This document shows, piece after piece, positions 3,293 through 26,829 of a DNA stretch of 34,662 nt. A model generated the notes under the pieces. That model had not been told where the DNA came from. It worked only from the letters and a program-made list of their open reading frames with translations, and made no database searches. The number at the start of each line of letters is the position of its first letter. The first letter of the stretch is position 1. The position numbers were made by a program, and so were the translations under genes. The stretch is from Clostridia bacterium (GTDB taxonomy: Bacteria; Bacillota; Clostridia; Christensenellales; CAG-1252), in the NCBI GenBank assembly GCA_017463565.1, contig JAFTOZ010000062.1:1-34662 (forward strand), in the 5' to 3' direction.

Positions 3293-4327
3293 TTAGGCAC
3301 CTTTTGCTGTATATTCTTGTTTTCGTAAATTAAAAGCAAAAATATTTTTATGTACAGCTATATGAATTCTTGAACTTATTGATTCAATATTAATTGGCTC
3401 TTTTGCATAATTTGCCAAAAGGTCAAGTATTGAGTCCTGTTTATTTATCCAATCAAATTGTGAAGATTCCGTATAATTTTCATCGTAATCAAAAATTATT
3501 AGTTGCCTGTTCCCATCGTTTGCTATCCATTTTAACAATAGTTGCCACCATTTTTTATCTGTTTCACCTAAGGACATTCCATATATGCAGATAATTTGGC
3601 TATTATTAATCAATTGTGTCGCCCGAGTGTCATTGTTTGTACGATTTACAGCATTTAATAATGGTTTAATTATTCTTTTTCTAAATTTTATATCATTAGC
3701 GAGCTCCTTATTTTTTATTTGAGATTCGTCATTAAGCCCCATTAAAGGTAAAGCGCCAATAAATCCGTGTACATTTTCAACCTTTCCAATTTTATCTACA
3801 TATAAGGTAGTCCCTATACGTCTCTCTGCTACCTTGCCGTCAGTAATACACCAAATGCAGCGATCCAGCACATTAGTATAATTAAAGTTTATAAAATTAT
3901 ATATATGTTCACTTTTGTCATATATAGCATATAAAGCCTTTATCCTTCTTACTGATTCGTCAGCCAAATTACTTATACCATAATATGTTCTTAACGCTTT
4001 AGTAAATTCTTCTTTAATATTTGTTTCATTATACTCCAATTTTCCTTGTTCTAATGTTAGATAATAAATAAAGCCCAATTCAAAATCACGTAATTGCGCA
4101 AAAAAATCGTTTTGATTTTTAGGCGTAAACTTCTCAGTATATTCACCAAGTTTTTTCTCAAAATATGACCATTCAGCTCGATTAGTATCAATATCATCTG
4201 CAAGAGCTTTAATACTAATATCCTTTTTTTCCGATTCTTTGATATAAATTGGAAAGTAATCGCTAAATTTTGACTTTAATCCCATTCCAACATCAAAACC
4301 ATTTCCAATTAAAAACGTTATATTCAT
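3293..4327 (-). CDS. AbiH family abortive-infection protein
   Basis: A protein of 344 residues. Its N-terminus NITFLIGNGFDVGMGLKSKF is the hallmark of the AbiH family (GNGFD followed by a G-L-x-[ST]-x-[FY] segment), first described as a lactococcal phage-resistance protein. A second typical element, INFNYTNVLDR, lies mid-protein, and ICIYGMSLGETDKKWW is the conserved segment towards the C-terminal end. Family mechanism is unknown to me; a role in phage defence is inferred from family and neighbours. The start is ATG 4327 with GAGGAA just upstream; an in-frame start 18 bases further up lacks support. The gene is AT-rich, unlike its flanks, and sits beside a restriction-modification cluster. 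Confidence 0.85.
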   Translation of the reverse strand: MNITFLIGNGFDVGMGLKSKFSDYFPIYIKESEKKDISIKALADDIDTNRAEWSYFEKKLGEYTEKFTPKNQNDFFAQLRDFELGFIYYLTLEQGKLEYNETNIKEEFTKALRTYYGISNLADESVRRIKALYAIYDKSEHIYNFINFNYTNVLDRCIWCITDGKVAERRIGTTLYVDKIGKVENVHGFIGALPLMGLNDESQIKNKELANDIKFRKRIIKPLLNAVNRTNNDTRATQLINNSQIICIYGMSLGETDKKWWQLLLKWIANDGNRQLIIFDYDENYTESSQFDWINKQDSILDLLANYAKEPINIESISSRIHIAVHKNIFAFNLRKQEYTAKGA

Positions 4328-4367
4328 ATATTCCTCAAAAAACAACCTTTGGCTGATTTTTACTATT

Positions 4368-4485: not shown

Positions 4486-5598
4486 ATGCAAACGTTAATT
4501 AAATGGCCGGGTGGCAAGACCTCTGAATATAAAATTATAAAAAAGTTCATTCCTGAATATAACAGGTATATTGAACCTTTTTTTGGTGGAGGAGCAGTGT
4601 TTTTTAATTTACCGCCTCAACCAGCCATTATAAACGATATTTCAGCTAACTTAATGCAGTTCTATTCTCTGATTAAAACGCAGGACTCTAAATTCAAAAA
4701 GTGTCTATATAGCATAAATGAAGAATGGGATTTATTAAAAAAGTTAGCAAGCAACCAAGCTATAGAAATTAGCCACTTATTTGTAAAATATCGTGAAAAC
4801 GAATCCATAAAACCCGAATTAGAAAACAAGCTAATCGAAAGCTGTAAAACCATTTCTCAATCCATTTGCGACTGTTCCAAAGTTGTAATAAACAAAGACT
4901 TGTTACAAAAAGAAATCAGCAGAATGGTCAAAGATAAAGTCTTTCGTACAAGGAAGAACGAAATTAAAAACGGCATAGATTTGAACGATGACGATTTAAA
5001 AAACAACATAATAACAGGCTTTACAAGCGGTTATTATATGTATCTTCGTGACGTACTCAATCGCATTGAAACACAAAACGAGCTTTTTATTGCAGAAGAA
5101 TATAAAATCGCAATCTTCTATTTTGTCAGAGAGTTTTGCTACGGCTCAATGTTCCGCTACAATAAGGCAGGTGAATTTAATATCCCTTACGGCGGTATGG
5201 GTTACAACAACAAGGACTTTGAGAAAAAAATAGACTTGCTTTTCACGGAAGAAACGCAAACCTATTTTAAGCAAACTGAAATATTCAGTTGTGATTTTGA
5301 AGAAGTTCTAAATAATGCACAAGAAGGCGACTTCATTTTCCTTGACCCCCCTTATGATACCGACTTTTCAGACTATGAAAATAGGAGTTTTGGAGAACAG
5401 GAGCAAAGAAGATTAGCCAAGAGCTTGCACGATACAAAAGCAAAATTCCTATTGATTATTAAGAATACACCTTTAATTAGTGAGTTATATCAAAACAATG
5501 GATACAGGGTGTATGCCTTTGATAACAAATATTCTTACTGTGTTAAAGGCAGAAACGATAGAAATGCAGTTCATTTAATCGTTACTAACTACGATTAA
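4486..5598 (+). CDS. Dam-like (D12 class, alpha group) DNA adenine-N6 methyltransferase
   Basis: A 370-residue methyltransferase that should transfer a methyl group from SAM to adenine in a specific site. It begins with IKWPGGK (residues 5-11), then the SAM-binding motif PFFGGGAVFF (31-40), and carries the catalytic DPPY at 287-290. This motif order (X-I-target domain-IV) defines the alpha group to which Dam and DpnM belong. It is about 90 residues longer than Dam; the extra length lies in the helical target-recognition region (about 60-200). The N-terminal motif starts almost at residue 1, so ATG 4486 is secure even though no ribosome binding site is visible. Its 3' end overlaps the convergent beta-group methyltransferase by 14 bases. 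It is part of a two-methyltransferase restriction system. Confidence 0.9.
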   Translation: MQTLIKWPGGKTSEYKIIKKFIPEYNRYIEPFFGGGAVFFNLPPQPAIINDISANLMQFYSLIKTQDSKFKKCLYSINEEWDLLKKLASNQAIEISHLFVKYRENESIKPELENKLIESCKTISQSICDCSKVVINKDLLQKEISRMVKDKVFRTRKNEIKNGIDLNDDDLKNNIITGFTSGYYMYLRDVLNRIETQNELFIAEEYKIAIFYFVREFCYGSMFRYNKAGEFNIPYGGMGYNNKDFEKKIDLLFTEETQTYFKQTEIFSCDFEEVLNNAQEGDFIFLDPPYDTDFSDYENRSFGEQEQRRLAKSLHDTKAKFLLIIKNTPLISELYQNNGYRVYAFDNKYSYCVKGRNDRNAVHLIVTNYD

Positions 5599-7581: not shown

Positions 7582-7833
7582 TTAGCCGTGTGAGCGGCGC
7601 AACCGCATGATAACCGCAGAGGTAATGGGTAGGGGCAGGGTGCAGAGTGCGGCAACGGACAGAGGGAATAGCGAGGGAGAAAGAGTAGCGGTGGCGTGCC
7701 ACTCGGCAAGAAGTACCGCCGCCGTAATGCCGTAGCCAAGCCAAAAGGTCACCGTCAACAAAATGAGGGTCCACAAAAGGACACCGATAGGGTCTTGTAT
7801 GAGCCTCGATAGTAGAGAAGTCTTATTTGCCAT
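7582..7833 (-). CDS. Small two-helix membrane protein, last gene of the helicase cassette
   Basis: An 83-residue protein with two clear hydrophobic segments (PIGVLLWTLILLTVTFWLGY at about 16-35 and a longer one at about 50-74) and a basic C-terminal tail (RLRRSHG). Start ATG 7833 has GGAGGGC 7 bases upstream and overlaps the end of the preceding gene by 11 bases, indicating translational coupling. I do not recognise the family. As the distal gene after a single-pass membrane protein, it may be a membrane partner; that is inference only. Confidence 0.7.
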   Translation of the reverse strand: MANKTSLLSRLIQDPIGVLLWTLILLTVTFWLGYGITAAVLLAEWHATATLSPSLFPLSVAALCTLPLPITSAVIMRLRRSHG

Positions 7834-9685
7834 ACCAATAGCCCTCCATCTCGGTGATTTGTGCGATTGTTGCAGGGGCGGTGCCGTGGATATTGCCGCC
7901 CGGAGATAGGGTGTTGCTCGACTGCACCAGAGCAACTGCGTAGGTACAGACCTCGCTGGGCACGTAGTACAGACCCGAATAGGCGACGAATGCCAAGCCG
8001 TTGCTACGCGCACGATCCAGGGTCATCCACCCCACCAGACCGCCTGCGTAGGGATAGTTGCCCACCACGGTGGCGTTTCCCGTGAAGAAGCAACGGAGCA
8101 CGTTGCCTGCATCTCCGCCGCTGATACCCCCTACGAAACTGTAGAGGTTAAAGGGGTCTCCCTCTTGGAAAGTGCGCCCCGTAGCACGGAGATGGGCAGA
8201 AACGATACAATCTTGCACCTGACCCGTATAGGTGACCTGCACGCCGTCTACCAACTCGCCGTGTTGGTCGTTGATACCGCAAATACCCCCTACGTAGATA
8301 GAGGTGATTTGTCCCTCGGCAAAGAGGTCACCGCCCACGTAAACGTGGGAGACGGTGCCGTAGTTGGCGCCTGCTACACCGCCCAACAAAATTTGTGCGC
8401 TGGTGGCGAGGGGGTTGGGTATATGGTTATGTTGAATGCCCACGTTGCCCGTTACGGTGCAGTTTTCAATATTGCCGTAGTTGGTACCGCAAATACCGCC
8501 CAAGCGAGGACTCCACGTAGCCTCCTCGGTGAGTTGGGTACAATCTCCGCTGACCGTACAGTTGCGAATGATACCGCCGCGGCGGTTTTCTCCTACCAAT
8601 GCGCCACCGTCTACCGTTTCCAACAGTAGGTTGTCCGACAGGGTACAACCCTCGATCAGTCCGTCGTTATCGGCGCATAGCCAACCTGCGTGTCCGTTGA
8701 TGGCGCTCGTGCCCGATACGGTAAGGTTGCCCGACAGGGTACAGCCTACGATACTGCCCTTGTTTTCTACGCACAAAATGCCGGTTGCGGTGTGCGACTC
8801 GGATAGGGTAAGGGATAGATTGTCCACCACGATTTTCACGTTTTCCAACCTACCCGTGAGGGTGTGGCAAAGAAGTGCGCCCACCGTGCCCGGTTGGTTG
8901 GACACAAGTCGCAGAGTCAGGTTGGATAGAGTACCGCCAAAGGTCGTCCACATAGATTCCTCCCCCACGAGGGTGAGGGTATGACCGTTGCCGTCTAACC
9001 GTCCTTGCGGATTTGCCACAGGGGGTGCGGATAGGGTGATGTCCTCCGCCAGTACCAAAGGCTTGTCACTTTGCCACCAAGCGGCAAGGTCTGCCTCGCT
9101 CCGTACGGTAAAGACGCGTTGCAGATGCCCTTTCCGGATACTCGTAGCCAAGCCAACGCCCGTGCCGACGGTTGCCGCCGCCAGTAGCGTGAGCACGCAA
9201 ACGAGCACAACCAGGCGATCCCAACCCTTGGAGATGGGTTTTGGGGGAAGTCGCAACATGCCGTTTTCAAAGGTTGGCACTTTGCCAAAGCGCAGACGGT
9301 AGGCGTCTACTACCTGCCGCTTTTGCCCCTCGGTCAGATCGTAGCGAGGATAAAGGCGCAATAAGTCGCGCCGTCTGCCCAATACCGCCAGCATTGCCAG
9401 GGGGTGCACCGTTTCGGTGTTGCCCACCCATAGCCGCAGGGCCTTGCCTGCAGAGCGAGCAAATTGGGTATAGAGAGAAAGAGGCTCCTCGACTACCTCT
9501 CCCGACAGGGGCATATCGGTGCCGTAGGCACGCAAAATGCGGCGCGCGCCGTATAGAATGCACACGCTTGGCAGGGGAAACCGCCCCCAGCACACCCCCT
9601 TCTTTTTGTTGTATAAGGTGGAGAAAGTGCCGAGATCGTCCTTTTGGACGGCGGTTAGCAGTCGGGTTGCGTCTTGGGGAGTCAT
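7823..9685 (-). CDS. Membrane-anchored beta-repeat (GLUG-like) protein
   Basis: A 620-residue protein with three visible parts. Residues 1-150 are soluble, helical and presumably cytoplasmic (TPQDATRLLTAVQKDDLGTF at the start has an ankyrin-like look). One transmembrane helix lies at about 156-178. The remaining ~440 residues are an external domain of repeats such as GGICGTNYGNIENCTVTGN, GGVAGANYGTVSHVYVGGD and GGISGGDAGNVLRCFFTGN. These match the GLUG-type motif and right-handed beta-helix folds found in surface proteins, preceded by LDGNGHTLTL, also typical of such helices. There is no N-terminal signal peptide, so the orientation would be type II. ATG 9685 follows the previous stop by 2 bases. 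Partner function with the upstream helicase is unknown. Confidence 0.75.
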   Translation of the reverse strand: MTPQDATRLLTAVQKDDLGTFSTLYNKKKGVCWGRFPLPSVCILYGARRILRAYGTDMPLSGEVVEEPLSLYTQFARSAGKALRLWVGNTETVHPLAMLAVLGRRRDLLRLYPRYDLTEGQKRQVVDAYRLRFGKVPTFENGMLRLPPKPISKGWDRLVVLVCVLTLLAAATVGTGVGLATSIRKGHLQRVFTVRSEADLAAWWQSDKPLVLAEDITLSAPPVANPQGRLDGNGHTLTLVGEESMWTTFGGTLSNLTLRLVSNQPGTVGALLCHTLTGRLENVKIVVDNLSLTLSESHTATGILCVENKGSIVGCTLSGNLTVSGTSAINGHAGWLCADNDGLIEGCTLSDNLLLETVDGGALVGENRRGGIIRNCTVSGDCTQLTEEATWSPRLGGICGTNYGNIENCTVTGNVGIQHNHIPNPLATSAQILLGGVAGANYGTVSHVYVGGDLFAEGQITSIYVGGICGINDQHGELVDGVQVTYTGQVQDCIVSAHLRATGRTFQEGDPFNLYSFVGGISGGDAGNVLRCFFTGNATVVGNYPYAGGLVGWMTLDRARSNGLAFVAYSGLYYVPSEVCTYAVALVQSSNTLSPGGNIHGTAPATIAQITEMEGYWYGK

Positions 9686-16990: not shown

Positions 16991-17097
16991 GACCTTGGAT
17001 AAGGTCTTTTGTTATTCATCTGTGCTTATGCAGGTGAGCCACGAGGCAAGCGTGCGGTCTTGCCACTAAATTGTATATTATATATGGAGGTATATAT
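16991..17097 (+). promoter_or_regulatory. Structured 5' leader of oppA
   Basis: Three successive hairpins can be drawn: GACCTT/AAGGTC (16991-17006, followed by TTTT), CATCTG/CAGGTG (about 17018-17037) and GGCAAG/CTTGCC (17045-17064). GGAGG follows at about 17085. No known riboswitch class fits; it may stabilise or regulate the mRNA. Confidence 0.4.
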
Positions 17098-19806
17098 ATG
17101 AAGAAGAGCAAACTGACGATCATGTTGGTAGCAGTGTTGCTGGTCGTATCCATCCTCGGTGCCTGTGCTTTGACGGGCTGCGAAGAGGTTTGCACCGCTC
17201 ACGTTGATGCCAACAAGGATTTAAAATGTGATAATTGTGGGGTGGCTCTGGATTGCGATCATAGCGACGCCAGTGTTATTCCTGCAGTTCCTGCTACTTG
17301 CACCGAGCCCGGCTTGACCGAAGGCAAGAAGTGTAATGTTTGCGGTGAAGTTTTGGTCGCTCAAACCGAAGTTCCTGCTGTTGGCCACATCAACTCTGAT
17401 GCTGACAACAAGTGCGACAACTGCGACAAGACTTTCGTCTACACCCTGCACGACAGCATGGGTGCTGGCCCCACCAACTGGAACCCCCACGTTTGGGAGA
17501 CCAACGCAGACAACTACTTTGCCGGTTACACCGAGATGGGTCTTGTGGACGTGACCATCGCTGACGACGGCGTCAACTACGCTTGGGTTTGGGAAATGGC
17601 TACCGGTATCGAAGACGTTACCGCTGAGTACCAAGCTGACGAAGAGAAGAACGCTAAGTGGGAAGTTGGTGAGTTGACCGAGGGTAAGGTTTATCGTATC
17701 TACCTGAACGAGCTGGCTAAGTGGGCTGATGGCACCCCCATCAATGCTGACACTTATGTCTACTCCATGAAGCAATTGCTGAACCCCAAGATGCAGAACT
17801 ACCGCGCTAACACCTACTATGCTGGTCAAAGCGCTATCAAGAACGCTGCTAAGTACTTCAACTCTGAGAGCCCCATCTACGACTACGTCTATGCTGAGGA
17901 TGCTGAAGGCAACGAGATCCCCTTCGATTTCGAGAACAACGCTGTGTATCTGCACCTGACCAAGCCCTGGATGCTGAACAGCAGCTACGCTATCTACGAC
18001 TTGATGGACATGGGTTACATTGATGCTGCAGAGTACAACGCATTGGCTGAGGAAGCTAACCCCTACGGTTTCGTGGAGCTCACCGCTGACAACGCAGCTA
18101 CCGTGAAGAGCGTTATCGCTCAATTCCTGACTGCATTCGGCATTAATCTCACCGAAGAAAACGCGATTGACAACATCTATGCTCGTACTCATATGTACTA
18201 CAACACCGGCAAGTTCTCTGAACCTTTCGCTTGGGAGAACGTTGGTTTGGTGAAGGTTGATGACTACACCATCGACTACATCCACGAGGGTGCTGAGAGC
18301 GAGTACTACTTCCTGGTGAGCTTGACCTCTAACTGGATCGTCTACGAAGATCTGTACGAGGCTGGTAAGACCCAACTGGGCGACCTGATCACCACCGACT
18401 ACGGTACCGCTGTTGACAAGTATATGTCCTACGGTCCCTACAAGCTCGACTCCTACGAGTTGGATAAGCAAATGCGCATGAGCCGCAACGAGAACTGGTA
18501 CGGTTGGACCGACGGTCTGCACGTAGGTCAATACATGACCACCAACATCGTTTGCGACATCATCAGCGACGAAGCTACCCTGGAAGGTTTGTTCCTCACC
18601 GGTAAGGTAGACGGCCTGGGCCTGAACGCTACTCAGCTGGCTGAGTACCGCAACAGCCAATACCTGTTGAAGACCGACCAAACCTACACCTTCCGTTTCG
18701 TATTCGCTTCCGATCTGTCCAAGCTGACCGCTCTGGAGACCCAATACAACAACGGCGCTAACCTGAAGGTTCTGTCCTACGACGACTTCCGTAAGGCAAT
18801 CTCCTTGGCTATCGACCGTGCTAAGATGTGTGCTCAAGGTACCGGTGGCTACAAGCCCGCTTACGCTCTGTTCAACAGACTGTACTACTATGATGTAGAG
18901 AACGATCCTTCCTCCATCTACCGTGATACCGCTGAGGCTAAGCAAGTTATCCTCGACATCTACGGCGTGAAGTACGGCGAGGACGAGGCTTACAAGACCT
19001 TGGACGAGGCTTACAACTCCATCACCGGTTTCGACTTGGCTCAAGCTAAGGAACTGTTCCAAAGCGTATACGAGACCGCTATTGCTGACGGCAACTACAC
19101 CGAAGGTCAAAAGGTTATCATCCACTGTATGGCTACCGGTGCTGACACCCTCAGCGAGGACGACAGCGCTCAAGAGCGTTTGTTGAACGAATTCGTTGCT
19201 GCTGCTACCGTTGATACCGGATTCGAAGGCCTGATCTCTTTCGAGTTCTCTGCTGGTGCTGCTGACCGTTACGGTGACGTGGCTGCCGGACGTATCGAAA
19301 TGATCCGTGGTGCATGGGGCGGCGCTGCATTCTTCCCCTTCTCCACCATCCGTTGCTACACCGAGCCCGAGTACATGGGTGGCCTGAGCGCTATCCACGA
19401 GTCCTGCGGTTGGGATCCCTCCAAGGAAGAACTGACCCTGGTCTATGACTTCGACTTGGATCCTGCTACTCCCGATGAGGAAATCACTCTGACCCTCGAC
19501 AAGTGGGCTATGAGTATCAACGACGGTTACCTCGATGAGGCTTCTGGCGACCTGTATCTGTACACCGACGGCGACACCAAGATGATGATCTTGGCTGAGT
19601 TGGAGCAGGCTGTCCTCGAGTCCTATCAATGTATCCCCTTCGCTTCCGAGACTGCATGTTCCTTGTTCTCTCAAAAGATCAAGTATGCAACCCTCGAGTA
19701 CAACATCATGTACGGTTACGGCGGTCTGCGTCTGATGACCTACAACTACGATGACGTAGCTTGGGAAGAGTACGTAGCTTCTCAAGGTGGCGAACTGAAG
19801 TACTAA
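17098..19806 (+). CDS. oppA: Oligopeptide ABC transporter substrate-binding lipoprotein
   Basis: A 902-residue family 5 extracellular solute-binding protein that should deliver peptides to the permease encoded downstream. The signal peptide has two possible lipoboxes, LGAC (Cys23) and LTGC (Cys28), so it is probably a lipoprotein. Residues ~30-115 are an added segment with CxxC pairs (LKCDNCG, KKCNVCG, NKCDNCD) and DxDxD-like turns, resembling zinc-ribbon-type repeats of Firmicute surface proteins. The binding domain follows (YVYSMKQLLNP, YMSYGPYKLDSY, FRKAISLAIDR are typical). At about 790 residues after that segment, it is larger than usual OppA (~540). Codon use is strongly biased (GCT, TAC, AAC, CTG), as in highly expressed genes. 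Start ATG 17098 has GGAGG 8 bases upstream. Confidence 0.92.
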   Translation: MKKSKLTIMLVAVLLVVSILGACALTGCEEVCTAHVDANKDLKCDNCGVALDCDHSDASVIPAVPATCTEPGLTEGKKCNVCGEVLVAQTEVPAVGHINSDADNKCDNCDKTFVYTLHDSMGAGPTNWNPHVWETNADNYFAGYTEMGLVDVTIADDGVNYAWVWEMATGIEDVTAEYQADEEKNAKWEVGELTEGKVYRIYLNELAKWADGTPINADTYVYSMKQLLNPKMQNYRANTYYAGQSAIKNAAKYFNSESPIYDYVYAEDAEGNEIPFDFENNAVYLHLTKPWMLNSSYAIYDLMDMGYIDAAEYNALAEEANPYGFVELTADNAATVKSVIAQFLTAFGINLTEENAIDNIYARTHMYYNTGKFSEPFAWENVGLVKVDDYTIDYIHEGAESEYYFLVSLTSNWIVYEDLYEAGKTQLGDLITTDYGTAVDKYMSYGPYKLDSYELDKQMRMSRNENWYGWTDGLHVGQYMTTNIVCDIISDEATLEGLFLTGKVDGLGLNATQLAEYRNSQYLLKTDQTYTFRFVFASDLSKLTALETQYNNGANLKVLSYDDFRKAISLAIDRAKMCAQGTGGYKPAYALFNRLYYYDVENDPSSIYRDTAEAKQVILDIYGVKYGEDEAYKTLDEAYNSITGFDLAQAKELFQSVYETAIADGNYTEGQKVIIHCMATGADTLSEDDSAQERLLNEFVAAATVDTGFEGLISFEFSAGAADRYGDVAAGRIEMIRGAWGGAAFFPFSTIRCYTEPEYMGGLSAIHESCGWDPSKEELTLVYDFDLDPATPDEEITLTLDKWAMSINDGYLDEASGDLYLYTDGDTKMMILAELEQAVLESYQCIPFASETACSLFSQKIKYATLEYNIMYGYGGLRLMTYNYDDVAWEEYVASQGGELKY

Positions 19807-19812
19807 TTTCTA

Positions 19813-19884
19813 GGCCCTCGGGCCAAGACAATTTGAACAATTCCTACGGGTGTGCCTCGCAAGGGGCACACCCCAAAAGGAATT
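19813..19884 (+). promoter_or_regulatory. Stable hairpins after oppA
   Basis: GGCCC/GGGCC (19813-19824), then a long stem GGGTGTGCC/GGCACACCC (19848-19873) inside an outer pair AATTCC/GGAATT (19839-19884). There is no T run, so this more likely protects the 3' end of the oppA mRNA than terminates it. Confidence 0.65.
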
Positions 19885-19893
19885 ATTAGTGGG

Positions 19894-19914
19894 GAGGTTT
19901 TTAACCTCTTTTTG
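19894..19914 (+). terminator. Possible attenuator between oppA and oppB
   Basis: GAGGTT / AACCTC with a 3-base loop, directly followed by five T. The stem is short, so partial read-through is expected, giving more binding protein than permease. The only nearby GGAGG is within the stem. Confidence 0.55.
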
Positions 19915-19929
19915 TATGGTATAAATATC

Positions 19930-21021
19930 ATGAGTACATTCAAGTATGTTTTAAGTCGTATCGCTCTGATGCTGGTCGTGTTCGTGGTCACCATGGTTTT
20001 GTGCTTTTGCTTGATTCGTTTGTTGCCTTTCAAGTCGGAAGCTACCGGTCTGCAGGCCATCACTGAGCAAAGACGACTCCAAATGCTTGGTTGGGCAGAT
20101 ACGGATGCAGACGGCAATAAGATCACCATGATCGAAAAGCTCGGTAAGTGGATCTACAACATCCTGTTCCGTGACGTCCAGAGCATTGATCCCGAAACTG
20201 GCGAAAAGACAAAGATCGAATACGACGAGAAGACCGGTGAAATCATTCCTAATCCCGACGGCAGACCCGACTGGGACTGGGGTGTCTCCTTGAAGATCGA
20301 CTACCTCAAGGACGTTACCGAAGTTGTAGGCGATCGTATGACGCCAACTATTTTGCTGAACGTTTATTCTCTGCTGATTTCGATACCTATCGGTATTGCT
20401 TTCGGTATTTTTGCCGCGCTCAAGAAGAACAAGTGGCAGGACCACTTCATCTCGACCGCCGTTATGCTGTTCATTTCGGTGCCGAGCTTTGTGTACGCTT
20501 TCTTGTTGCAATACTTCTTCGCGTTCAAGTGGGGAATTTTGCCCGCTCAGTCCTCTTCTCTGATGGACGCAGGCGGTTCATACTTTAGCTGGGAAATGAG
20601 CAAATCGCTGATCCTACCCGTGCTCTCCATGAGCTTTGGTACGATTGCCGGTTTGACACGTAGCACGCGTGCCGAGTTGACCGAGGCATTGACGAGCGAA
20701 TATATGCTGTTGGCCCGCACCAAGGGCTTGACCAGATCGCAATCCATTATGCGCCACGCGCTCAAGAACGCTATGGTGCCCATTTTGCCGGGTATCATCT
20801 CCTCCTTCGTGGGTATTCTGAGCGGTTCTTACATCATCGAGCAAATCTTTGGTGTACCCGGCGTTGGTAAGCTGTACATTATGTCGATCAACATGCGCGA
20901 CTACGATTTGTTCATGTTCATCACCGCATTCTACGGCTTTATTGGCTTGCTTTCTAACATTTTGATTGACTTGTCCTACGGATTCCTTGATCCGCGGGTG
21001 AAGATGGGGGCGAAGAAGTAG
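19930..21021 (+). CDS. oppB: Oligopeptide ABC transporter permease, OppB type
   Basis: A 363-residue permease. TM1 (LSRIALMLVVFVVTMVLCFC, about 9-28) is followed by an external loop of about 90 residues with DTDADGNK and IDPETGEKTKIEYDEKTG, longer than usual, then five more helices. The ATPase-contacting EAA-type loop is LARTKGLTRSQSIMRHALKN, and the C-terminus GFLDPRVKMG is typical of OppB/DppB. The start at ATG 19930 is chosen because family members begin just before TM1; no ribosome binding site lies close, so translation may depend on unfolding of the upstream hairpin. A longer frame reaches back to 19852 but through the hairpins. Confidence 0.9.
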   Translation: MSTFKYVLSRIALMLVVFVVTMVLCFCLIRLLPFKSEATGLQAITEQRRLQMLGWADTDADGNKITMIEKLGKWIYNILFRDVQSIDPETGEKTKIEYDEKTGEIIPNPDGRPDWDWGVSLKIDYLKDVTEVVGDRMTPTILLNVYSLLISIPIGIAFGIFAALKKNKWQDHFISTAVMLFISVPSFVYAFLLQYFFAFKWGILPAQSSSLMDAGGSYFSWEMSKSLILPVLSMSFGTIAGLTRSTRAELTEALTSEYMLLARTKGLTRSQSIMRHALKNAMVPILPGIISSFVGILSGSYIIEQIFGVPGVGKLYIMSINMRDYDLFMFITAFYGFIGLLSNILIDLSYGFLDPRVKMGAKK

Positions 21022-21022
21022 T

Positions 21023-23371
21023 ATGGCTAAGAAGAATGATTTGCAAAACCAACATTTGACCCCAGACATGTTTGTCCCGGTCAATGCAGACAAGGTGCTG
21101 TCTGACGTCAAGTTTGACACCAAGCCCGTAGGCTATTTGATGGACGCTTGGCGCCGCTTCAAGCGCAACAAGGCGTCGGTTGTGGCAGCATGCATCATTT
21201 TGATCATTGCATTGTTCGCCATCATCGCGCCCCTCGTGTCTCCCTACGAGATGAGCGAGGTAGACGGCTACTATAAGCACGCCCGCCCCAAGATTGCCGG
21301 CATGAACAATTCGGGCAGCGGTTTCTGGGACGGTACCTACGTCAAGGACCAAAGCACGTTGGACTATATCTATTTCAACGGTATTGCTATGGGTGCTTTG
21401 GACACCGACTTTGACGGCAAGCACGATTGGAACGAAGTGCTCGCCAGCGAATTCAACCCCATCAAGAAGGAGTTGGACGACTACGACTATACCACCCAGG
21501 TAAACGGCGTGGATATCACCAGCCACCGCTACGAGTTGCGCGTGGACTCCTACTACGAGGTAGGTTTCCGCTCGGTAGAGGGTATCACCCCCGAAGAGTA
21601 TCAACGCATTTTGGATTGGGAGCAGGAGACCGGTCTGAAGGTCATCTATCCTGTGATCAACTTCAACGATGCAGACGCATTCGACTCCACCAATATCAAC
21701 ACCGACTCGCAGGATAACTACTGGTATCGCAACAAGCGTGGTACCAACGGCGGTACCGTGCCTATTGATATCAACGGCAACGAGCTGACCCTCGAGCAAG
21801 TGATGAACGGCGAGTTGGTACCCAACTATGCCGTCCGCTACGACGAGACCCCCGACGGCGAGTATATCGTAGACCCCCTCAAGGGCTACGTGTTGGCATC
21901 CTCTTTGAGTCCCGAGGAGTACGCTGCTCTGACCAACAAGCGTTACAGTACCTTCATCGAGGACCGCTTGAACGGTATCTACGCATACTACAACGGCAGT
22001 TACGTATTGGCATCCTCTTTGACCCCCGACCAATTGGAAGGTAACACCAAGCGTTACAGACAAAACGGTGTGGAGGCAGAGGACGGTGCGTACGTATTCG
22101 ACGGCAACGACTACGCGCTGGTTTCCTCTCTTAGCGAGGCTGAACTGGCACGTGCATACGCTCGTTATAGCGCAGTATATACCGAGAATTCCAAGGGTAA
22201 GTTCTACTTGGTAGACGGCGAATATAAGACCGGTACCGAGTTGGGCTGGAAGATCATGGAAATCGAGGAATACAAGGCAGGCGGCGGCAAGACCTATTCG
22301 CAAGCCTTCGTGTTGGACTACAACGGCAACTACGTATTGGACGGCAAGAACTACAAGTTGGAATCGAGCATGAGCGCAGATGCACTGGCGAAAATGGTAG
22401 TGCGCTACAATATCGATTGGCGTCGTGATACCCAAGGTAAGCACACCCTGTTCGAGGGCGAGTACGTGCTGTACGATTCGCTGACCCCCGAGCAACAAGA
22501 CTCTTTGTTGACTCGCTATCATCGCGTAGAAAACGCTACCTTTATCCGTACCGGTGCCGGTGGTAAGAACTACCGTATCCGCGTGCTGTACTACAACTAC
22601 TATCGCTATCTGAACGACAAGGAGCCCGTACACGTGTTCGGTGCTGACTCCCAAGGCTACGACATTTTGGTTCGTTTGGCAATGGGTGCCCGTCTGTCCC
22701 TGGTATTGGCAGTTTGCGTAGCAGCAATCAACCTGATCTTCGGTTCTCTCTACGGTGCTATCTCGGGCTACTACGGTGGCAAGGTAGATATGGTGATGGA
22801 GCGTATTACCGACGTTTTGGCGGGTATCCCCACCATCGTGTTGATGACCCTGGTGCGTATCCACTTGATCGAAGGTTCCGTGCCCGTGATGATTGGCGAC
22901 ACGTTGCTGTTCAACCTGCACCTCACCGATATGGGCGGCATCATCTTCGCTATGTGTGCAACCGGCTGGATTGGTACGGCTTATTCCGTGCGTATGCAGT
23001 TCTACCGCTTCAAACGGCAAGAGTATATTTTGGCGGCGCGTACCCTGGGTGCGCGTGACGGACGGTTGATGTTCCGCCATATCTTCCCCAATGCGTTGGG
23101 TACCCTGATCACCGGTTCGGTGTTGGTTATCCCGGGCGTTATCTTCTCGGAAACTTCGCTGGCGTACTTGGGCGTTATCAGCTTTACCGGCCCCAATATC
23201 ACTTCACTGGGTGCTATGCTATCCAACGGTCAGTCGGCAGGTATCAGTAAGTTCCCGCACATTATCTTCTTCCCGGCGTTGATTCTGTCCTTGCTGATGA
23301 TCAGTTTCAACCTGTTCGGTAACGGATTGCGCGACGCATTCAACCCCTCTTTGAGAGGATCGGAGGAGTAG
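21023..23371 (+). CDS. oppC: Oligopeptide ABC transporter permease, OppC type, with giant extracellular insertion
   Basis: A 782-residue protein; OppC is normally about 300. TM1 is at about 52-72 (VVAACIILIIALFAIIAPLV). Family similarity resumes at VHVFGADSQGYDILVRLAMG (536-555) and continues through the membrane domain with FKRQEYILAARTLGARDGRL as EAA loop. The ~460 residues between them should lie outside the cell. They contain tandem repeats of about 37 residues with the core Y-x-L-x-S-S-L-[ST]-x-[ED] and a closing R-Y. The reading frame is intact, with the same codon bias as its neighbours, so this is a real insertion, not a fusion artefact. ATG 21023 follows the oppB stop by one base (TAGTATG). 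Confidence 0.92.
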   Translation: MAKKNDLQNQHLTPDMFVPVNADKVLSDVKFDTKPVGYLMDAWRRFKRNKASVVAACIILIIALFAIIAPLVSPYEMSEVDGYYKHARPKIAGMNNSGSGFWDGTYVKDQSTLDYIYFNGIAMGALDTDFDGKHDWNEVLASEFNPIKKELDDYDYTTQVNGVDITSHRYELRVDSYYEVGFRSVEGITPEEYQRILDWEQETGLKVIYPVINFNDADAFDSTNINTDSQDNYWYRNKRGTNGGTVPIDINGNELTLEQVMNGELVPNYAVRYDETPDGEYIVDPLKGYVLASSLSPEEYAALTNKRYSTFIEDRLNGIYAYYNGSYVLASSLTPDQLEGNTKRYRQNGVEAEDGAYVFDGNDYALVSSLSEAELARAYARYSAVYTENSKGKFYLVDGEYKTGTELGWKIMEIEEYKAGGGKTYSQAFVLDYNGNYVLDGKNYKLESSMSADALAKMVVRYNIDWRRDTQGKHTLFEGEYVLYDSLTPEQQDSLLTRYHRVENATFIRTGAGGKNYRIRVLYYNYYRYLNDKEPVHVFGADSQGYDILVRLAMGARLSLVLAVCVAAINLIFGSLYGAISGYYGGKVDMVMERITDVLAGIPTIVLMTLVRIHLIEGSVPVMIGDTLLFNLHLTDMGGIIFAMCATGWIGTAYSVRMQFYRFKRQEYILAARTLGARDGRLMFRHIFPNALGTLITGSVLVIPGVIFSETSLAYLGVISFTGPNITSLGAMLSNGQSAGISKFPHIIFFPALILSLLMISFNLFGNGLRDAFNPSLRGSEE
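21887..22528 (+). repeat. Tandem ~37-residue protein repeats within oppC
   Basis: Copies start at residues 289 (YVLASSLSPEEY), 327 (YVLASSLTPDQL), 364 (YALVSSLSEAEL), 444 (YKLESSMSADAL) and 481 (YVLYDSLTPEQQ), each closing with RY about 20 residues on. Spacings are 38, 37, 80 and 37; a degenerate copy near 401 fills the double gap. A possible sixth, NELTLEQVMN, lies near 253. Confidence 0.8.
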
Positions 23372-23372
23372 T

Positions 23373-25562
23373 ATGGAAAAGAAATTAGAAGTAAAAGATT
23401 TACGTATCTCCTTCCGTACGGATGCAGGTAAGGTGCAAGCCGTGCGTGATATCAGCTTTGACCTGTATAAGAACGAGACCCTCGCTATCGTGGGTGAGTC
23501 GGGTTCCGGTAAGTCGGTTACCAACAAGGCTATCATCGGCATCTCTGCCGTGAACGCTATCATCGAGAGCGGTGAGATCATCTACGACGGTATGGACTTG
23601 CTGAAGATCAGCGAGGACGACTTCCACAAGCTGCGCGGTGACAAGATCGCCATGATCTTCCAGGATCCGCTGTCTGCTTTGGATCCCATCTGCCGTATCG
23701 GTAAGCAGTTGACCGAGGCCATGATTTTGAAGAACCGTGCCGCTCGCCGTGACGCGCGCCGCACCTTCAACCGCATGACCAAGCGCTTGCTCAAGGCTAT
23801 GGACGCCGCTATGGGCGTAGAAAAGGGCAGCGATCAAGCCAAGGCTAACCAAAAGCGTATCGACGATTTCGACCGATTCTCCTCCAAGCACCTTTCTATG
23901 GAAAAGGTGTACAACGCTGCTCAACAGGCTGCCGTCGTGGTGGTGGAAGAAATTGATGACTTGCTGTTCCATATCGAAAAGAAAGCGGTCAGTGAGTTCT
24001 CCAAAAAGGTTCGCCACATCGTGCGCCACGCCAAAGACAGCGTGCACGAGCACGTGGTAGACGCAGGTATCGTGGCCTTAGCAGACGAGTTCAAGGCTAC
24101 TGCCAAAGAGGCACGCTCCAAGAAGGACTACTCCTTGGTGGTGGACGTACTGAACCGTATGTTGGTGCTTGCCAAAGAGGGTGTGGAGCGTGTATCTCCC
24201 AACTACTTTGCGCTGGGCTACTATCTGACCTTTGCCGGTCAGCCCCTGCCCGAGATGGAGATTGGCGAGTTGAACGCATTCTTGCGCGCCTATCTGGACG
24301 AGCACTATATGCTCAGCTTCATCGAGGACGAAAAGAAGGCTTTGCAATGGTCCTACGAGCGTTCTCTGGAGGCTAAGCGCGTGGTGATCGACGCCCTTGC
24401 CGAGGCAAGACCTCTGTTTGCAGAGGGCGAGGCAGACAAGCAAGCTTTCCGCGCTGCTGCCAAGGCTCTTTCCGAGAAGGTTGCCGATTCTATCGACCCC
24501 CTGAAACTCGTGAAGGACTCTGCTGCCTACACCTTCAAGACCAGTCTGCGCTCTGCTATCGATACCTATTTCGATGCTATCCCCAACAATGCGCGTGAGC
24601 AACGCCGCTTTGACAAGGAAACCAAGCGCTACGACAGAATCATTGCCCGTGGCAAGACTCCCGACTATAAGGTGACTCCTGCCAAGATCGTGGACTTGGA
24701 ACTTGCACGCGACAACATCGTGCATATCCTGGATAACCTGAGCGCACGTTACCAAAAGGATTTGGAGAATCGCGACAGCTACGACGTAGCAGTCGAGGCA
24801 GTTGCTTTGATCGACTTCCTGAAGGAAAAGGCACAGGCTGTGGCATATCGCGTGACTCCATTGGTGGCCAAGAACAAGGCTATCAAGTTGATGGAGGAGG
24901 TGGGTATTCCCGAGCCCGAGCGCCGCTACCGTCAGTATCCCTTCCAATTCTCGGGCGGTATGCGTCAACGTATCGTTATCGCAATCGCACTTGCCGCTAA
25001 CCCCGACATTTTGATTTGCGACGAGCCTACCACCGCTTTGGACGTGACCATTCAGGCACAAATCCTCGAGCTGATCAACAAGCTCAAGAGAGAACGTAAC
25101 CTGTCCATCATCTTCATTACCCACGACTTGGGCGTTGTGGCAAATATGGCAGACCGTATTGCCGTTATGTACGCAGGCAAGATCGTAGAGATGGGTACGG
25201 CAGAGGATATCTTCTACCGTCCTGCACATCCCTACACCTGGGCATTGCTGTCGAGTATGCCCGACCTGGACACCAACGAAAAGCTGGAGGCTATTCCCGG
25301 TACGCCCCCCAACATGATCTATCCTCCCAAGGGAGATGCATTTGCGGCGCGTAACAAGTATGCCATGAAGATTGACTTTGAACTGCAACCTCCTATGTTC
25401 CAAATCAGTGAGACCCACTGTGCGGCTACGTGGTTGCTGCATCCCGATGCACCCAAGGTAGACCTGCCCCGTCCCGTGGCAGAGCGTATCGAACGTATGC
25501 ATCGCATCAATAGCGAGAATGCTCGCTTGAAGGCCGAGGCCGAGGGGGACGACCATGAGTAA
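23373..25562 (+). CDS. oppD: Oligopeptide ABC transporter ATPase, OppD type, with large helical insertion
   Basis: A 729-residue ATPase; OppD is normally about 330-350. Walker A GESGSGKS (41-48), Q-loop FQDPLSALDP (96-105), signature SGGMRQR (527-533), Walker B ILICDEP (546-552) and H-loop THD (H584) are all intact. Between the Q-loop region and the signature, residues ~121-500 are an extra, almost wholly helical, charged domain with no recognised motif. It is inserted in the helical subdomain that touches the permease. The typical OppD C-terminal substrate-type region (IPGTPPNMIYPPKGDAF) is present, though with only one clear cysteine. ATG 23373 follows the oppC stop by one base and has GGAGGAG. 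Confidence 0.92.
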   Translation: MEKKLEVKDLRISFRTDAGKVQAVRDISFDLYKNETLAIVGESGSGKSVTNKAIIGISAVNAIIESGEIIYDGMDLLKISEDDFHKLRGDKIAMIFQDPLSALDPICRIGKQLTEAMILKNRAARRDARRTFNRMTKRLLKAMDAAMGVEKGSDQAKANQKRIDDFDRFSSKHLSMEKVYNAAQQAAVVVVEEIDDLLFHIEKKAVSEFSKKVRHIVRHAKDSVHEHVVDAGIVALADEFKATAKEARSKKDYSLVVDVLNRMLVLAKEGVERVSPNYFALGYYLTFAGQPLPEMEIGELNAFLRAYLDEHYMLSFIEDEKKALQWSYERSLEAKRVVIDALAEARPLFAEGEADKQAFRAAAKALSEKVADSIDPLKLVKDSAAYTFKTSLRSAIDTYFDAIPNNAREQRRFDKETKRYDRIIARGKTPDYKVTPAKIVDLELARDNIVHILDNLSARYQKDLENRDSYDVAVEAVALIDFLKEKAQAVAYRVTPLVAKNKAIKLMEEVGIPEPERRYRQYPFQFSGGMRQRIVIAIALAANPDILICDEPTTALDVTIQAQILELINKLKRERNLSIIFITHDLGVVANMADRIAVMYAGKIVEMGTAEDIFYRPAHPYTWALLSSMPDLDTNEKLEAIPGTPPNMIYPPKGDAFAARNKYAMKIDFELQPPMFQISETHCAATWLLHPDAPKVDLPRPVAERIERMHRINSENARLKAEAEGDDHE

Positions 25563-26829
25563 TCAACCCGAAACCAACAAAGAACCTTTGCTCCGTGTGG
25601 AGCATCTGTCCCAATACTTCCGTTTGGGTCCCACCACCCTCAAGGCGGTCAACAACGTAAGCTTTGACATTATGCCCGGTGAGGTGTTTGGTTTGGTGGG
25701 TGAGTCCGGTTGCGGTAAGACCACCACCGGTCGTTCTATCATCAAACTGTACAACTGCACCGACGGTAACGTGTATTTCAAGGGTCGCCGCATCTGTGCC
25801 GGTACCTTGAGCTACAAGAACGCCAAGAAGGAGGCCTACAAGGCTCTGTGGGCAGACGTCAAGAAGGCGTGTTCTAAAAAGAAGACTGAGGGCGAAAAGG
25901 TAGACCTCAAAGCGTCCATTGCCAACTGGCACCGCATTTGCCACGAGCAAAACGTGCAAATCCGCAAGGCAAAGCACGACCAAAAGCGTTGCGACAAGGA
26001 CTACGCCAAGGAGAATATTGCCCTCGTCAAGGCCGACTATAAGGCTCGCTTGAAGGCAGTTGAGGGCGGCTTCAAGAACAAGGAATACAAAAAGGTACTG
26101 TGGGAGTACGTCAAGGCATACTTCTTTGCTCGCAAAGAACGCTACGTGACCAAGATCCAAATGATCTTCCAGGATCCTATCGCCAGCCTCGACCCCCGTA
26201 TGACCGTTCGTGAGATCATCGCAGAGGGTTTGACCATTCGCGGTATCCGCAACAAAAAGTTGGTGGACGAATTGGTGTACGAAGTATTGGAGAAGGTTGG
26301 TCTGGTGCGTGAGCACGCTAACCGCTATCCCCACGAGTTCTCGGGCGGTCAACGTCAGCGTATCGGTGTGGCACGTGCTATCATCATGCGCCCCGACATG
26401 ATCATCGCCGACGAGCCCATCTCTGCTCTGGACGTGAGCATTCAGGCTCAGGTTATCAACCTGCTGAACGATCTGCGCCACGAGTTGGGCTTGACCATTA
26501 TGTTCATTGCGCACGACCTGTCCGTTGTGAAGTACTTCTCCGACCGTATCGGCGTTATGTACTACGGCAATATGGTAGAGTTGGCTACCTCGGAAGAGTT
26601 GTTCAAGCACCCCTTCCACCCCTACACCCGCTCCTTGCTGTCGGCTATTCCTCTGCCCGACCCCATCTACGAAAAGCAACGTGAGCGTATCGTCTACAAT
26701 CCGTTGGCAGACCACGACTACAGCGTAGACAAACCCACCCTGCGTGAGGTTTGCCCCGGTCACTTCGTGTCTTGCAACGAGGCCGAGTTCCAAAAACTGC
26801 AGGAGATCCTGGCAGCAGAGGCAAAGTGA
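25555..26829 (+). CDS. oppF: Oligopeptide ABC transporter ATPase, OppF type, with Lys-rich insertion
   Basis: A 424-residue ATPase; OppF is normally about 310-330. Walker A GESGCGKT (49-56), Q-loop FQDPIASLDP (205-214), signature SGGQRQR (263-269), Walker B MIIADEP (282-288) and H-loop (H320) are intact. About 115 extra residues (82-197) lie between the first strands and the Q-loop, a different position from the OppD insertion. They are very rich in Lys, Ala and Cys/His (KKACSKKKTEGEKVDLKAS and RICHEQ, for example) and predicted helical. Start ATG 25555 overlaps the oppD stop by 8 bases, so the two are coupled; GAGGGGG lies upstream. Forms a heterodimeric motor with OppD. Confidence 0.92.
   Translation: MSNQPETNKEPLLRVEHLSQYFRLGPTTLKAVNNVSFDIMPGEVFGLVGESGCGKTTTGRSIIKLYNCTDGNVYFKGRRICAGTLSYKNAKKEAYKALWADVKKACSKKKTEGEKVDLKASIANWHRICHEQNVQIRKAKHDQKRCDKDYAKENIALVKADYKARLKAVEGGFKNKEYKKVLWEYVKAYFFARKERYVTKIQMIFQDPIASLDPRMTVREIIAEGLTIRGIRNKKLVDELVYEVLEKVGLVREHANRYPHEFSGGQRQRIGVARAIIMRPDMIIADEPISALDVSIQAQVINLLNDLRHELGLTIMFIAHDLSVVKYFSDRIGVMYYGNMVELATSEELFKHPFHPYTRSLLSAIPLPDPIYEKQRERIVYNPLADHDYSVDKPTLREVCPGHFVSCNEAEFQKLQEILAAEAK

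Follow-up and report, generated by a model that had tools for sequence, protein, structure and literature searches.

Why should the permease of a peptide importer carry some 460 extra residues outside the cell, and what are these residues made of? Permeases of binding-protein-dependent importers are usually viewed as conserved machines, with the binding protein as their sole variable partner. In the clostridial DNA analysed here (34,662 nucleotides in total, hereafter the window), the gene at 21023-23371 (+) encodes a permease of 782 aa in a single open frame with no internal stop, as originally predicted. The protein bears the two domains expected of an OppC, namely OppC_N (residues 38-88, 57.3 bits against a curated cut-off of 23.9) and BPD_transp_1 (residues 574-778, 83.3 bits against 26.4), it is encoded in an operon with OppA, OppB, OppD and OppF, and its best NCBIfam model is Opp3C (251.8 bits, under the curated cut-off of 450). 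By hydropathy, TM1 spans approximately residues 53-71 (21179-21235 (+), inside OppC_N), the following hydrophobic segment lies at 558-576, and the permease core (TM2-TM6 with the coupling helix region, within BPD_transp_1) occupies 22658-23368 (+). Between TM1 and this core there are approximately 461 residues (78-538), in agreement with the figure first proposed. The TM1-TM2 loop is on the periplasmic side in the solved structure of DppC (PMC12136057) and, by analogy of position, the insert of the window OppC can be placed outside the membrane too, which is where the original prediction had put it.

OppC proteins typically have about 300 aa and a short loop between TM1 and TM2, although this is not strictly defining, and such a length was taken as the norm at the outset. 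It does apply to the solved OppC/DppC members (E. coli OppC, 8z21, and DppC, 8z1v; M. tuberculosis, 8j5q), which share with the window protein the TM1 domain, the permease core and the OppA-B-D-F operon, but are only 287-302 aa long and have no counterpart of either part of the insert described below. In the bacterial order to which the window belongs, however, 60 of the 150 OppC_N open reading frames (ORFs) listed have at least 460 aa, so length does not define the OppC family. This is also apparent from a second clade of long OppC paralogues (approximately 690-730 aa), with its own conserved TM1-TM2 insert of about 400 aa; its members are L018, L021, L147, L152, L155, L156, L157 and L159, the first of them apparently with internal repeats. 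A long OppC loop is thus ordinary in this order, and the insert of the window protein consists of two separate layers, an extracytoplasmic domain and a repeat array.

The first layer was delimited by an alignment of 84 OppC sequences, mostly from Clostridia and Bacilli (about 520 aa) and many of them from gut metagenomes. Their TM1-TM2 stretch has a median of 212 residues and ranges from 185 to 290, except for the window protein (461) and its relative in RUG14300 (696). Around 210 residues of the window insert correspond to a non-repetitive α/β domain common to all 84, so that the original description of the insert as made of tandem repeats stands for approximately half of it (some 230-245 residues) and fails for the rest. 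The first part of the domain comprises residues ~78-262 (21254-21808 (+), AlphaFold2 pLDDT mostly above 90) and the closing part, which runs on into TM2, residues ~509-545 (22547-22657 (+), RVLYYNYY..EP..FG, delimited by the alignment and the AlphaFold2 model), and the window protein has the domain motifs of the ~520-aa enlarged-Opp clade (DSY..G.., LT..Y, IYP, WY and RV..Y.Y..GFEP..FG). For the domain of a short relative, AlphaFold gives an α/β fold with a pLDDT of 94.8 and a pTM of 0.90; in the model of the window insert, made as the check first proposed, most of the domain is likewise predicted with confidence, and the repeats fall mostly below pLDDT 50-65.

In spite of this confident model, no Pfam or NCBIfam entry covers the domain, and a fold search of the PDB with the domain alone gave a best Foldseek E-value of about 0.9 and no VIA-align match with Z≥2; the full insert matched no PDB fold either. 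At the sequence level, the domain profile met UHRF1 in the PDB (E 0.027), a match judged not credible, and there was a single weak match in PHROGs, to a phage family of no known function (E 6.4e-5). The claim that no OppC domain of such a kind had been described is borne out in Pfam, NCBIfam, the PDB and the open-licence literature searched. What emerges is an undescribed domain that is widely shared, is modelled with high confidence and resembles no PDB entry.

As for its role, docking or orienting OppA over the pore appears the most likely one, since the domain is a constant feature of the clade and is attached to the helices that form the pore. The nearest analogy is the P2 domain of MalF, which touches MalE (PMC3150292) and is likewise an extracytoplasmic folded domain, carried by one of the permease subunits in a type I importer; nevertheless, MalF belongs to another permease family and the OppC domain shows no fold match to any PDB chain, P2 included (Foldseek, VIA). 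Another TM1-TM2 region that meets the binding protein is the scoop motif of the peptide-importer permease DppB (PMC12136057), but it belongs to B-type subunits and consists of two short helices with a loop, some 30 residues in all, whereas the window protein, with its OppC_N domain, is a C subunit with 210-460 residues in that place.

The second layer is the array, inserted in one variable loop of the conserved domain, close to its C-terminal end according to the alignment. At least five copies of a motif of about 37 residues had been anticipated, and the array comprises six units of about 38 aa, with a period of 37-41 residues, a two-unit super-period near 80 and the consensus G-x-Y-x-L-D-x-G-x-Y-V-L-x-S-S-L-S-P-E-E-L-A-x4-R-Y. 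The units start at residues 270 (21830-21943), 308 (21944-22054), 345 (22055-22171), 384 (22172-22294), 425 (22295-22408) and 463 (22409-22525, to residue 501), all on the (+) strand. The fourth is degenerate, with a small internal insertion. Compared with shuffled sequences, the insert has a diagonal score of 110 (at most 59 over 200 shuffles) and its best gapped self-alignment scores 156 (at most 39 over 6 shuffles). The form of the units, as read from the sequence, is β-hairpin-like, the model of the repeats being unreliable. Searches of repeats and insert against Pfam at E≤10 gave nothing usable, and those of repeat profiles against PDB sequences only chance matches.

At the DNA level, the units are 35-54% identical, TRF finds no tandem array in the region, and the GC3 of the repeats (0.68, against 0.70-0.75 elsewhere in the gene) and their GC content match the remainder of the gene. 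A recently collapsed or expanded DNA repeat is consequently very unlikely on sequence grounds.

Where does this type of repeat come from? Outside OppC, the six-unit profile weakly matches very large ORFs in the family to which this bacterium belongs; of two of these examined with Pfam, one has LRR_5 repeats and the other a weak MBG match. Profiles free of OppC were then built by iteration from single seeds inside six giant ORFs only, and they converged on 30-33 copies of a module spread through all six. Searched with these profiles, the window OppC is matched with full-sequence E-values of 8.5e-10 and 3.5e-12, whereas the best value among all other ORFs and reversed decoys is about 0.1. A 16-row OppC-free profile, A7, recognizes the whole window OppC with E 2.3e-8 and meets repeats 2, 3 and 6. 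In the window's own genome (six frames, E≤10), this profile finds just three sequences: an ORF of 4256 aa on contig C23, one of 1580 aa on contig C54, and the window OppC, three repeats of which are matched with single-unit E-values of 0.01-0.05. Across 20 genomes of the family (E≤0.1), nearly every match besides the window OppC falls in an ORF of 1580-10286 aa, and at E≤0.001 the module is present in 15 of 151 sampled genomes of the order, mostly in very large ORFs. It also appears in a 614-aa protein of G111 and, as two to three copies within a variable region, in an OppA-type solute-binding lipoprotein of G119 (L162:307-2967 (-)).

The giant proteins in question are surface proteins of the BspA-like LRR_5 and MBG types from this family, the BspA-type LRR open frames reaching 10286 aa (L120, G003:C26) and 4256 aa (L119, G000:C23). 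They have a hairpin module, xxNGAYVxxDGEYVxYxx..RY, like the OppC repeats, but there it is scattered among other domains, and in the window OppC it forms six tandem copies in a membrane permease. Two points limit how the E-values should be read: the seeds in the giant proteins were first spotted through their resemblance to the OppC repeats (and are to that extent selected), and single-repeat E-values are at best about 0.003-0.05, which leaves room for convergent hairpins. On the whole, the OppC repeats are probably copies of a module met chiefly, OppC aside, in the giant surface proteins that these bacteria make.

A comparison with relatives, mostly metagenome assemblies, indicates that this layer changes between species. 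Relative to RUG14300, the closest relative, identity is 57% for OppA, 73% for OppB, 80% for the OppC core, 67% for OppD and 69% for OppF, and it falls to 37% in the OppC domain, where the repeat arrays are unrelated. The OppC of RUG14300 (L031, on the contig G002:C88) is an orthologue that carries in the equivalent loop about 470 aa of repeats of another type, YFDAEGNPL, which match RHS_repeat weakly (E 0.0027, under the cut-off) and resemble other proteins of the family only weakly, with no E-value better than 0.01. The OppC of G004, from the same genus, is intact at 541 aa and has no repeats, and none of the other aligned OppCs carries the repeats of the window protein. The giant proteins are similarly changeable: when four members of the genus are compared, their orthologous LRR proteins vary in the copy number of the module at one site, and at a second site only one of them has the module.

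OppA has undergone a comparable change. In the window, where the operon order is oppA-B-C-D-F, the OppA solute-binding lipoprotein (SBP_bac_5) is encoded at 17071-19806 (+), with a likely start at 17098, and its N-terminal region includes a Cys-rich segment with CxxC pairs (17182-17445 (+)), placed between the lipobox and the core. This segment is a module that recurs about 35 times in an ORF of 3505 aa on contig C8 of this genome, and further large ORFs in the genus have it as well; in the same interval, the OppA of RUG14300 has a Big_3 domain instead. In the sequences compared, the core subunits stay conserved while the modules of the OppC loop and the OppA N-terminus differ between sister species. 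This suggests that surface modules may be added to a transporter with its core unchanged. The permease itself is an ordinary one of the enlarged-Opp kind, decorated with an array of surface modules specific to the lineage.

The reading we favour, with somewhat better than even confidence, is that of an enlarged Opp importer whose conserved OppA-docking domain has been decorated with six surface-protein modules. The window OppC would serve an enlarged type of Opp peptide importer that is widespread among Clostridia and Bacilli of the gut; its conserved domain would dock or orient the lipoprotein OppA above the pore, in the manner of MalF-P2 and MalE, and one loop of the domain would have been extended by six β-hairpin-like modules of the giant-surface-protein kind. 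These would face outward, vary between close species and probably take no part in the transport cycle, acting as a surface spacer or as an adhesive or shielding layer on the importer. Such a surface function is inferred, and it is favoured because the repeats are of the surface-protein type and OppA has gained a module of that sort too. The null expectation would be the neutral lengthening of a tolerant loop.

That null is also the main rival, although we regard it as considerably less probable: the loop would simply tolerate insertions, and the arrays would have accumulated by a ratchet without any selected function. It accounts for the variation of the arrays in presence, type and length between close species, for their location in the least conserved part of the protein and for the several unrelated kinds of long OppC loop in the order. 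Nonetheless, frame, motif and GC3 have been retained in spite of the divergence among units, and the parallel gain of a surface module in OppA suggests selection for such modules.

The original prediction had envisaged an external collar or receptor that grips peptide, OppA or the cell wall. Less probable still than the neutral reading is a docking collar of this sort, adapted to hold the OppA of this species or its peptide and needed for transport. The repeats are certainly well placed for it, in an extracytoplasmic loop beside OppA, and loops of DppB and MalF touch the binding protein in other importers (PMC12136057, PMC3150292). However, RUG14300 keeps its OppA and OppB, and above all the OppC core, at the identities given above despite an unrelated array, and G004 has an intact OppC without any, as do the other aligned sequences. 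Since the kind and presence of the array vary against a background of little change in OppA and the core, the repeats are unlikely to be obligatory for transport; gripping, weakened for them, is plausible for the ~210-aa domain.

A broader proposal, about as doubtful as the collar, would make the hairpin module a nomadic unit, repeatedly inserted in frame and amplified in exposed loops of extracytoplasmic proteins of the order, with the importer as a membrane-anchored platform that displays changeable surface modules. It draws on the giant LRR/MBG proteins, the one OppA-type lipoprotein and the window OppC. Rickettsia palindromic elements are known precedents of short peptide-coding units in frame within unrelated proteins (PMC10969869), but the hairpin module has neither a consistent palindrome nor near-identical copies at unrelated places. 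A mobile coding element like those of Rickettsia was rejected: the palindrome z-scores are -2.0 to +0.6 in nine modules, and module matches between unrelated places are 70-92% over 23-78 nt.

Could the array instead be an internal duplication of the domain's own hairpin segment, its likeness to surface modules being superficial? A D-x-x-G-N hairpin does lie at the insertion point, and the LT-x-x-x-Y helix start is similar in style to the repeats, but a profile-profile comparison of repeats and domain gave a probability of 5%, against the surface-protein profile with its E-values of about 1e-9 to 1e-12, and this origin is highly improbable. Finally, an assembly error or chimaera, which the original prediction had named, together with absence from close relatives, as what would overturn it, might be feared in an assembly of 126 contigs, but is scarcely credible given the open frame, the uniform composition, the expected operon order of the flanks, the presence of the module elsewhere in the genome and the diverged units, which misassembly would have left near-identical; the absence is real in G004, and RUG14300 has its array of another kind.

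The remaining Opp subunits are also of interest. OppB (19852-21021 (+), BPD_transp_1, best NCBIfam Opp3B) is listed from its first GTG, and its true start may be downstream. OppD (23373-25562 (+), 729 aa) has its ABC domain divided by an insertion of about 370 aa, so that ABC_tran is matched in two stretches, and it also has oligo_HPY; OppF (25555-26829 (+), 424 aa), identified from Pfam, NCBIfam and the sizes in relatives, has a shorter insertion. Both are enlarged likewise in relatives (medians of about 718 and 407 aa), and their best NCBIfam matches are the OppD and OppF models of the minimal Mycoplasma (MMSYN1_0167 for OppD).

Antisense to OppC there is an open frame of 708 codons (20954-23080 (-)); neighbouring genes show the same, and codon usage is its most likely cause. 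Elsewhere in the window, a 620-aa protein with GLUG motifs is encoded at 7823-9685 (-), and an AbiH-like abortive-infection protein (3293-4345 (-)) adjoins a D12-class adenine methyltransferase (4486-5598 (+)), the two possibly forming a small defence neighbourhood.
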